Part shown: piece by piece, positions 48,986-51,250 of the stretch | Layout of the letters: every line of letters starts with the position of its first letter | Numbering within the stretch: the first letter of the stretch is position 1 | Assembly: GCF_009674725.1 (NCBI RefSeq) | Contig: NZ_WKKH01000006.1 | Coordinates: 62,001 to 126,000, forward strand | Source of the DNA: Pedobacter petrophilus | Lineage (GTDB): Bacteria > Bacteroidota > Bacteroidia > Sphingobacteriales > Sphingobacteriaceae | DNA length: 64,000 bases | Reading direction: 5' to 3' | Translations under genes and position numbers: made by a program | Notes under the pieces: generated by a model | What the model was told of the DNA's origin: nothing | What the model saw: the letters and a program-made list of their open reading frames with translations, nothing else | The model's database searches: none

Positions 48986-49417
48986 TTATTTTAGTTTTAG
49001 TCGCATTTCATAGTGAAAACCAATACCAGGAATATCAAACTCCGGAGATTCATTGATAAACCCTATCTTTTTATAAAATGGTGCCGCCGCAGACCGGGCA
49101 TTACACCAGAGGTAATCTGTATTGTATTCTTTGAGGTAGGCTATAGCGAAGGTGATTAATGCCGCTCCATAACCCCTGCCGCCGAAATCCGGATGGGTTG
49201 CCATTCCGCGAAGTTGATAACCTTCTCCGTCTTCCGGAAAAAAATCGTTACGCATAAAGGTGGCTACAGATCTGATAGCACCATCTTCCAGGTAACCGAG
49301 ATGAAAGGTATCATAGGCTTCATCTCCGTCAAAAATACATTCTTGCAACGGCCTACCATTTCTCAGCATCAAGCTTCTGAGTGGAAGAACTTCTTCGTGA
49401 AGAATGAATTTAACCAT
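48986..49417 (-). CDS. GNAT family N-acetyltransferase
   Basis: 143 residues. The acetyl-CoA motif A QLRGMATHPDFGGRGYGAALITF spans about residues 70-95 (R/Q-x-x-G-x-G/A), and motif B is near ARSAAAPFYKKIGF (about 110-125). This is a full-length GNAT domain and nothing else. It probably acetylates a small molecule or protein; the substrate is unknown. It is the first gene of a unit with pgk. Confidence 0.85.
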   Translation of the reverse strand: MVKFILHEEVLPLRSLMLRNGRPLQECIFDGDEAYDTFHLGYLEDGAIRSVATFMRNDFFPEDGEGYQLRGMATHPDFGGRGYGAALITFAIAYLKEYNTDYLWCNARSAAAPFYKKIGFINESPEFDIPGIGFHYEMRLKLK

Positions 49418-49591: not shown

Positions 49592-49609
49592 TGCACTTTA
49601 TTTTGTGCA
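49592..49609 (+). promoter_or_regulatory. HipB-type operator O1
   Basis: TGCAC-N8-GTGCA, perfect 5-bp half-sites with the 8-bp spacer of E. coli HipB operators (TATCC-N8-GGATA). Confidence 0.8.
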
Positions 49610-49622
49610 TAAATGAATAAAA

Positions 49623-49640
49623 CGCACAAAATAAGGTGCA
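49623..49640 (+). promoter_or_regulatory. HipB-type operator O2
   Basis: CGCAC-N8-GTGCA, one half-site base different from O1. It begins 31 bp after O1. Confidence 0.8.
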
Positions 49641-49655
49641 TAATTAATATATGAG

Positions 49656-49687
49656 TTTTGGTATGCACTATATTTTGCGCATCTTTG
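49656..49687 (+). promoter_or_regulatory. hipBA promoter with operator O3 in its spacer
   Basis: TTTTG (49656-49660), 19 nt, then CATCTTTG (49680-49687), one base off the -7 consensus. O3, TGCAC-N8-GCGCA, occupies 49664-49681, inside the spacer and touching the -7 box, 41 bp after O2. A repressor bound here would directly exclude polymerase. Confidence 0.75.
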
Positions 49688-49707
49688 TGATCATAAAACA
49701 ATAAGTG

Positions 49708-50001
49708 ATGAAGATTAAGAGGCCAATACTGTTTCCAAAGCATAAAAAAATATTAGAAGCATTTGGAGAGAATATTAAATTAGCCAGGAAGCGGCGGGCT
49801 TTAACTATTCTTCAAGTAGCTGAACGGGCAGGATTAAGCAGAAATACAATTACCGGTATCGAAAAAGGTAGCCCAAATATTTCTATAGGGGCTTATTTTA
49901 ATGTGCTTCGGACGTTGAACTTACAAGACGATTTCCTTAAAATTGCAGCAGATGATGAATTTGGCCGAAAGCTTCAGGATTTAGACCTATTAACTAAATA
50001 A
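49708..50001 (+). CDS. hipB: HipB-type antitoxin / XRE-family repressor
   Basis: 97 residues. The XRE helix-turn-helix covers about 18-75 (ARKRRALTILQVAERAGLSRNTITGIEKGSPNISI). It is expected to neutralise the HipA kinase and repress the operon. I start at ATG 49708 instead of the adjacent GTG. The stop is 1 nt before hipA. Three TGCAC-N8-GTGCA sites upstream fit an autoregulating HipB dimer. Confidence 0.88.
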   Translation: MKIKRPILFPKHKKILEAFGENIKLARKRRALTILQVAERAGLSRNTITGIEKGSPNISIGAYFNVLRTLNLQDDFLKIAADDEFGRKLQDLDLLTK

Positions 50002-50002
50002 A

Positions 50003-51250
50003 ATGACTGGAAAGACGGAGATTTACATCTATGCAGACTGGAAAGGAATTGATGGCCCAATAGAGATTGGGATATTATCTGCTTCTCAGGGAAAAGGAAA
50101 AAAAACATTTAACTTTGAATACAATAAAGCCTGGATTAAACATCCCAATTTCTTTTTACTGGATCCGGACCTGGAGCGCTTTAGTGGCCCTCAATACCCA
50201 AGAGGAAAAGAAAACTTTGGCATATTTATGGACTCCATGCCCGATACATGGGGTAGAACACTATTAAAAAGGCAGGCTACAGATCATGCAAAAAGACAAG
50301 GAACGCTTGTGCCAACGCTCTATGATATAGACTTTTTGCTTGGTGTGAATGATGAAAGCAGAATGGGGGCTTTACGGTTTAAATTGGATAGGAATGGCCC
50401 ATTTCTAAACAATGATCAAAATCACCCCACCCCACCATGGGCACACCTTATTGATTTGCAAAATAGTGCTGACAAGTTTGAGAAAAATGAGGATAGCAAT
50501 GACATTCGCGAGGATATAAAAATGCTAATGGCACCAGGATCTTCTTTGGGCGGCGCAAGGCCAAAAGCAAATATAATAGATGAAAAAATGCAGCTATGGA
50601 TTGCAAAATTTCCTTCAAAAAATGATACAATAGATAAAGCTGCATGGGAGTACCTGGCTTATAAATTAGCATTAAAAGCTGGAGTAGAAATGTCTGATTC
50701 TATTTTGAAACATATTTCAGGAGAATACAGCACTTTTTTAACTAAACGTTTCGATAGAGATAAAAGCCATCGGATACATTTTTCTTCTGCGATGACTATG
50801 ACAGGGAATGTAGATGGCAATGTGGATGAAGAAACAGGATATCTGGACATTGCCGAATTTATTCAATCGAATGGTGCCTTTGTAGATCGCGACCTGCATC
50901 AGTTATGGCGCCGGATTATTTTTAATATAGCGATTTCTAACACAGATGATCACCTTAGAAACCACGGATTTCTCCTCACAGATAAAGGCTGGCGGCTTTC
51001 ACCTGCATACGACTTGAATCCATCTATTGATAAAGATGCATTGGCAATCACAATTGATAGCAATACCGGAGAGCTGAATTTTGAGATCGCTTTTAGCGTT
51101 GGCGAATATTTCAGACTGAACAAAAAAGAAATGGAAGAAATACTTTCTCAGGTAAAAGATGCTGTGCAATCATGGAGAGCAATAGCAAATTCCATTAAAA
51201 TTAAACGGAGTGAAATAGAACTGATGGCTAAAGCATTTAAGTTTGGCTAA
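50003..51250 (+). CDS. hipA: HipA-type serine/threonine protein kinase toxin
   Basis: 415 residues. A type II toxin-antitoxin kinase; the E. coli relative phosphorylates GltX and halts translation. N-terminal couple-HipA part (about 5-100), then the P-loop-like MAPGSSLGGARPKANI near residue 175, FPSKNDTIDKAAWEY, STFLTKRFDRD, the catalytic-loop NIAISNTDDHLRNHGF with the Asp near residue 313, and LSPAYDLNPS (metal-binding DxNP) near 333. No truncation is seen and all motifs are intact, so the pair should be active. It is directly downstream of hipB. Confidence 0.93.
   Translation: MTGKTEIYIYADWKGIDGPIEIGILSASQGKGKKTFNFEYNKAWIKHPNFFLLDPDLERFSGPQYPRGKENFGIFMDSMPDTWGRTLLKRQATDHAKRQGTLVPTLYDIDFLLGVNDESRMGALRFKLDRNGPFLNNDQNHPTPPWAHLIDLQNSADKFEKNEDSNDIREDIKMLMAPGSSLGGARPKANIIDEKMQLWIAKFPSKNDTIDKAAWEYLAYKLALKAGVEMSDSILKHISGEYSTFLTKRFDRDKSHRIHFSSAMTMTGNVDGNVDEETGYLDIAEFIQSNGAFVDRDLHQLWRRIIFNIAISNTDDHLRNHGFLLTDKGWRLSPAYDLNPSIDKDALAITIDSNTGELNFEIAFSVGEYFRLNKKEMEEILSQVKDAVQSWRAIANSIKIKRSEIELMAKAFKFG

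Follow-up and report, generated by a model that had tools for sequence, protein, structure and literature searches.

The window analysed here, a 64,000-nucleotide stretch of Pedobacter petrophilus DNA, carries the gene pair hipB–hipA and, upstream of it, three palindromes with two 5-nt half-sites around an 8-nt core. The locus raises the question of whether these palindromes are operators of the antitoxin HipB and what sets the distances between them. hipBA operators as a kind are already known, notably from E. coli; for the 31-bp rule and the residue–base relation described below, no report was found in the open-access literature, most subscription journals lying outside the search.

Probable operator sites upstream of hipB

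The features of the locus, in the coordinates of the window, are the following:

49592..49609, minus strand: operator O1, TGCACTTTATTTTGTGCA, 0 mismatches; left member of the upstream 31-bp inverted pair; 5/5 half-site letters paired
49623..49640, plus strand: operator O2, CGCACAAAATAAGGTGCA, 1 half-site mismatch; right member of the upstream 31-bp inverted pair; 4/5 half-site letters paired
49656..49660, plus strand: -33 promoter element TTTTG, assigned by consensus (regular-expression match)
49664..49681, minus strand: operator O3, TGCACTATATTTTGCGCA, 1 half-site mismatch; within the promoter spacer
49680..49687, plus strand: -7 promoter element CATCTTTG, assigned by consensus (regular-expression match)
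49691..49708, plus strand: possible decayed right partner of O3, from a by-eye alignment with the right operator of the related locus L112; not recognisable as a site
49708..50001, plus strand: hipB, 97-aa HTH antitoxin; an alternative GTG start at 49705 is possible
50003..51250, plus strand: hipA, 415-aa HipA_C protein, putative kinase toxin; starts one base past the hipB stop

The original prediction had placed TGCAC-N8-GTGCA at 49592, 49623, and 49664. The three positions hold, but only O1 carries the exact pattern, with O2 and O3 each missing one outer half-site letter. The steps of 31 and 41 bp are likewise as predicted, whereas the placement of all sites on one face of the helix holds only roughly: at 10.5 bp per turn, the steps correspond to 2.95 and 3.90 turns and O1–O3 to 6.86 turns, so that the helical phase is approximate. 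Half-sites alone are no proof of an operator, since the bare pattern with up to two mismatches occurs 20 times in the whole window against 19.2 expected—a chance level. However, none of 2000 dinucleotide shuffles of the intergenic stretch produced a family of three similar 5-8-5 palindromes, and 39 of them produced a family of two. The significance of the array thus stems from the clustering and the common core rather than from the half-site letters, and the three palindromes are confirmed as a genuine site family. Reading O1 and O3 from the minus strand brings out the likeness of the cores (O1 TGCACAAAATAAAGTGCA; O2 CGCACAAAATAAGGTGCA; O3 TGCGCAAAATATAGTGCA). They are of an asymmetric AAAATA type, which makes the sites directional: O1 and O3 point along the minus strand and O2 along the plus strand. 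The three-site consensus, which fits its own sites by construction, matches the 5.47-Mb genome exactly at three places, all in the array; with one mismatch, there is a single site outside the array, inside a coding frame, and with two mismatches there are ten. At up to three mismatches, 85 matches are found vs 30 for the reversed pattern, an excess that may reflect composition or additional weak sites; a wider HipB regulon beyond the array is possible but unsupported.

HipB features an HTH_3/XRE domain (PF01381, 37.1 bits, cut-off 23) with the recognition-helix residues S44, N46, T49, and G50. Its scores lie under the curated NCBIfam cut-offs for HipB (TIGR03070, 42.4 vs 71.65 bits; NF007271, 22.5 vs 79), which makes it a relative outside the curated families. 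The closest solved relative is HipB of Pseudomonas fluorescens 2P24 (9u9g, E 2.1e-21)—at 153 aa, longer than the 97-aa protein of the window—which also leads the fold search; Legionella and E. coli HipB structures were matched by the profile search too. E. coli HipB is described as dimerising via a two-stranded C-terminal β-lid (PMC3376134). The monomer model of the window's HipB has a C-terminal helix at residues 84–95, with a pLDDT there of only 52–57. HipA features a HipA_C domain (PF07804, 168.1 bits, cut-off 30.5), and its model (mean pLDDT 83.9) matches the full-length HipA fold including the N-terminal part: the top 18 structure matches, with TM values of 0.63–0.69, are all full-length HipA chains from Shewanella or E. 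coli. As judged by sequence only, the conserved loops SSLGGARPK and NTDDHLRN mark it as a putative kinase.

The 31-bp spacing in related loci

A first scan kept the best 80 of 102 HipB relatives, nearly all from Bacteroidota, and a genus search gave a HipB match in 25 of 145 genomes, the own genome counted in. The genus-search rows of the window itself (L089) and of two partial matches (L113 and L114) were unused; removal of the duplicates L062, L091, and L092 left 101 of 104 upstream regions. Conservation of the half-sites had been proposed as a check of the original prediction. The letters are not conserved, as TGCAC-N8-GTGCA with up to two mismatches occurs in 10 of the 80 loci kept by the first scan; the two-operator architecture is. 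The reading of this low count as a lack of conservation was rejected on the basis of a motif fit, seeded with the window site or with palindromes taken from the upstream regions (the first 25 of 65 such seeds), which shows changed letters in a retained architecture: TGTTG-type palindromes lie at about -51 and -20 of hipB and are mutually inverted.

With spacings of 20–45 bp scored and TG/CA ends rewarded, 31 bp is the best spacing of the inverted pair in 95 of the 101 distinct hipB upstream regions. Repeat scoring with ties shared yields 95.5/101, and 71.2/101 without the TG/CA reward. Strict palindromes form a pair at 31 bp in 46/101 regions and at every other spacing in at most 2, while 100 shuffles yield 0.04 pairs at 31 bp on average and 2 at maximum. 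A second phylum set of 25 loci was drawn later (L125, L127, L137, and L145 unused; L120 a duplicate). All 10 loci of the window's HipB type in this set have 31 bp, two of them (L122 and L123) sharing their sites; the remaining 15, most of which have a sister type of HipB, show 32 bp as best or tied in 11, 31 bp in 2, and 29 bp in 1, with one lacking a clear best. The sister type (ARLRRKLS-like) has the same inverted pair at 32 bp (L129–L135, L138, L139, L141, L143, and L168). In a HipB tree of a selection, the 32-bp loci stand apart from the window's clade, and L136 and L144, with 31 bp, fall among the 32-bp loci. In 20 more distant Bacteroidota loci, 31 bp is top in none, and 32 bp is top or tied in five at low scores (18–20), which is only suggestive, as is the result for 12 plasmid loci: 31 bp is top in four (L167, L169, L173, and L175) and 32 bp in one (L168). 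The 31-bp step is thus conserved among the relatives and the 41-bp step is not; the latter and the count of three sites are peculiar to the window's locus among the loci examined. The probable working unit is the 31-bp inverted pair and not the three-site array.

Predicted promoter of hipB and position of the pairs

The Bacteroidota promoter consensus is given as TTTG / TANNTTTG in PMC6847099. The hipB transcript is predicted to start at 49692, with the G of TTTG at -5 in the register of the same source. The predicted 19-nt spacer is present (49661–49679); O3, however, is not confined to it, as it extends to 49681, two bases into the -7 octamer. In most relatives, the operator pair covers both promoter elements. 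In the 92 of the 101 loci used for the promoter-overlap count, the first TG of the right operator is the end of an exact TAnnTTTG in 78, with at least 5/6 letters matched in 87, and positions 3–5 of the left operator often read TTG (T 0.66, T 0.66, G 0.51). The five exceptions are L037 and four near relatives of the window: L001, L002, L090, and L112. In these four, TnTTTG directly follows the left operator, and TCTTTG likewise follows O3. Hence, the best reading of O3 is as the orthologue of their left operator, belonging to the usual pair next to the promoter as its left half; the right half of that pair looks decayed in the window. The presence of a fourth intact operator at the promoter was rejected, as the best consensus match downstream of O3 reaches only 10/18.

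O1 and O2 form a complete 31-bp inverted pair at -116/-85 of hipB without a promoter element. Six of the 101 loci, every one from the genus, have a second upstream pair with a score of at least 25: the window (32), L102 (31), L094 (30), L103 (29), L097 (26), and L098 (26). The largest score in 606 shuffled regions is 27, so L097 and L098 are both weak. Out of the six letters of the -7 octamer, these upstream pairs carry one in the window, four in L094 and L102, three in L103 and L098, and five in L097. Keeping 31 bp without a full octamer argues for a distance set by proteins and not by RNA polymerase, unless the upstream pairs are young copies; the window is a useful exception because its 31-bp pair is no longer on the promoter. 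The locus L094 (-127 to -20 of hipB) mirrors the window: the upstream pair and the proximal right operator are intact, and the proximal left one is decayed.

Half-sites and the HipB recognition helix

The half-sites are TGCAC in the window and TGTTG, TGTCG, TGATT, TGTAC, TGGAT, TGCTT, and others in the relatives. In the 97 of the 101 loci whose pair scores 24 or more, association with operator positions 3–5 is strongest for HipB columns 44, 46, and 50, followed by 6 and 16, which lie outside the helix, and then by 49; R45 and T47 are invariant in a 52-sequence HipB alignment. Counted per half-site, position 5 follows residue 44: T for V44 (51/52) and E44 (47/52), G for D44 (73/84) and H44 (65/80), and C for S44 (16/20), with N44 being mixed (G 33 and T 18 of 56). 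Position 3 follows residue 49: C for T49 (16/16), G for R49 (47/60), and T for Y49 (209/280). The S44–N46 combination of the window recurs in L006, L007, L010, and L065, and TGTAC and TGCAC predominate among the half-sites there. All these covariation counts are inflated by kinship of the loci. On a HipA tree of the 82 loci with a full-length hipA, residue 44 and operator position 5 co-change on 9.0 branches vs 1.8 expected, and residue 50 ranks first and 44 second in excess co-change over positions 3–5. Column 3 comes near residue 44 at position 5 (8.8 vs 2.2 expected), columns 8, 6, 69, and 35 are also raised, and column 46, high in the 97-locus association, lies outside the top 15. The half-sites track recognition-helix residues, chiefly 44, 49, and 50. 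Letters that shift with the recognition helix are a stronger argument for HipB binding than plain conservation would be—good but indirect evidence that HipB binds the neighbouring sites.

These roughly hundred natural loci, with a constant spacing and with half-sites and helix changing together, constitute a ready data set, which bears on how the distance from one DNA-bound HipB or HipBA complex to the next is fixed and on which few residues set operator specificity in the HipB antitoxin family. The genomes G353 and G526 have two full-length HipB-profile matches each; genomes of this kind may bear on the insulation of paralogous HipBs by distinct half-sites.

Comparison with known systems

E. 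coli HipB had been predicted to use the same 5-8-5 geometry with different half-sites, and this is borne out: TATCC-N8-GGATA is read from the K-12 sequence and described in PMC3376134. The E. coli K-12 hipBA operon likewise has several such palindromes upstream. They lie at -134, -106, -67, and -39 with spacings of 28/39/28 bp, so that a longer step separates two close pairs, and the right operator of the proximal pair adjoins a -10-like TATAAT. Cooperative binding of E. coli HipB to four operator sites is reported in PMC3376134. The window differs in its half-sites, which are TGCAC and not TATCC, in its spacings of 31/41 bp with a decayed fourth site, and in its core, as that of E. coli is not of the AAAATA type. 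From the sequence, the arrangement of the window looks like the E. coli plan with longer steps. Shewanella oneidensis HipAB bound to operator DNA (PDB 4pu3 and 4pu4) shares with the window an HTH antitoxin and a full-length HipA kinase, and 4pu4_B is the best structural match of the HipA model (TM 0.66). According to a review, a HipA mutation likely compromising dimerisation prevents the HipA:HipB:operator complex (PMC7180214). The Legionella hipBST system resembles the window by three operators upstream of the antitoxin gene, one of them over the predicted promoter, and by a conserved sequence between the half-sites; it differs by six-base half-sites, even 53-bp gaps, and a split three-gene system (all as described in PMC10653801).

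Proposed mechanism and alternatives

The array probably represents the autoregulatory operators of a Bacteroidota hipBA toxin–antitoxin operon, with a predicted paired-site cooperative autorepression by HipB or HipBA. From the sites, their orientation, the conserved spacing, the residue-to-base covariation, and the overlap with the promoter consensus, we infer binding, cooperativity, protein contact, and repression as follows. A HipB dimer would read each 18-bp site via its recognition helix. The two inverted sites of the working unit would hold one HipB dimer each, either free or carrying HipA, on the same side of the helix and separated by some three turns; these dimers may touch across the dyad for cooperative binding. 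In the relatives, RNA polymerase would be kept out by a pair lying on both the -33 and the -7 element; the window would have O3 in the place over the promoter, and O1/O2 would be a second, promoter-free pair, probably raising the local occupancy by HipB or HipBA.

That the operators are real HipB sites but owe their 31 bp to the promoter is rather unlikely, though still the strongest competing explanation: one operator would have evolved on each of the -33 and -7 elements, which stand at a set distance from each other, dimers would bind without contact, and the spacing would be a by-product of promoter geometry. The start of the right operator on the last TG of an exact TAnnTTTG in 78/92 loci and the frequent TTG at positions 3–5 of the left operator fit such an origin. 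It is opposed by the upstream pairs in the window (O1/O2), L094, L102, and L103, all at 31 bp although no -7 octamer matches there (a point that holds unless these pairs are copies of recent origin), by the four near relatives that shift the -7 register yet keep 31 bp, and by the preference of the sister HipB type for 32 bp. Whether O1/O2 serves hipB at all may also be asked, given its placement between two divergent genes. The pair could act on the divergently oriented GNAT gene, which starts at 49417, or on some other transcript, leaving hipB under the control of O3 only, and a minus-strand CATTTTTG (49593–49586) adjoining O1 is a possible divergent -7 element. This is improbable: O1 lies ~175 bp from the GNAT start, a second minus-strand TAACTTTG (49489–49482) is nearer to that gene, and other loci have the same paired architecture at hipB. 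Least probable by far is that a different regulator binds the palindromes or that they are chance AT-rich repeats. The chance-level count of the bare pattern with two mismatches in the window and the 85 vs 30 genome-wide consensus matches at up to three mismatches would suit this reading; the absence of a three-member family from all 2000 shuffles, the covariation of the letters with HipB's own recognition helix, and the paired sites upstream of hipB in 95/101 loci speak against it.

Within the preferred reading of paired-site autorepression, a more specific version is put forward tentatively, at somewhat less than even confidence. The Bacteroidota hipBA operator would be a rigid 49-bp two-site template for one HipB–HipA assembly, with a contact-dictated spacing that each lineage holds constant (the window's clade at 31 bp, the sister clade at 32 bp, E. 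coli at 28 bp) and with a specificity that changes through a small code relating residues of the HipB recognition helix to bases. The window would then feature the template uncoupled from the promoter, the spare upstream pair acting as a remote cooperativity or toxin-parking module.

As to the part played by HipA, hipB and the 31-bp pair are kept in L003, L010, L016, and L037, where a hipA match is absent from the ~2.5 kb downstream. A pair without hipA points to a contact made by HipB itself, with no HipA bridge required in those four loci, or to a recent loss of hipA. In L003, a 357-aa ORF, which we take to carry a Fic-like motif, starts ~95 bp past hipB. Elsewhere, hipA is apparently broken while hipB and the operators are kept: by an internal deletion in L004, by a division into two reading frames in L008 and L069, and by a reduction to a 50-residue inverted remnant in L001, an assembly error being possible in these cases. 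On a Thiothrix plasmid (L166:1771-2582), what follows a HipB-like gene is not hipA but an annotated RelB/DinJ antitoxin together with a small ORF.
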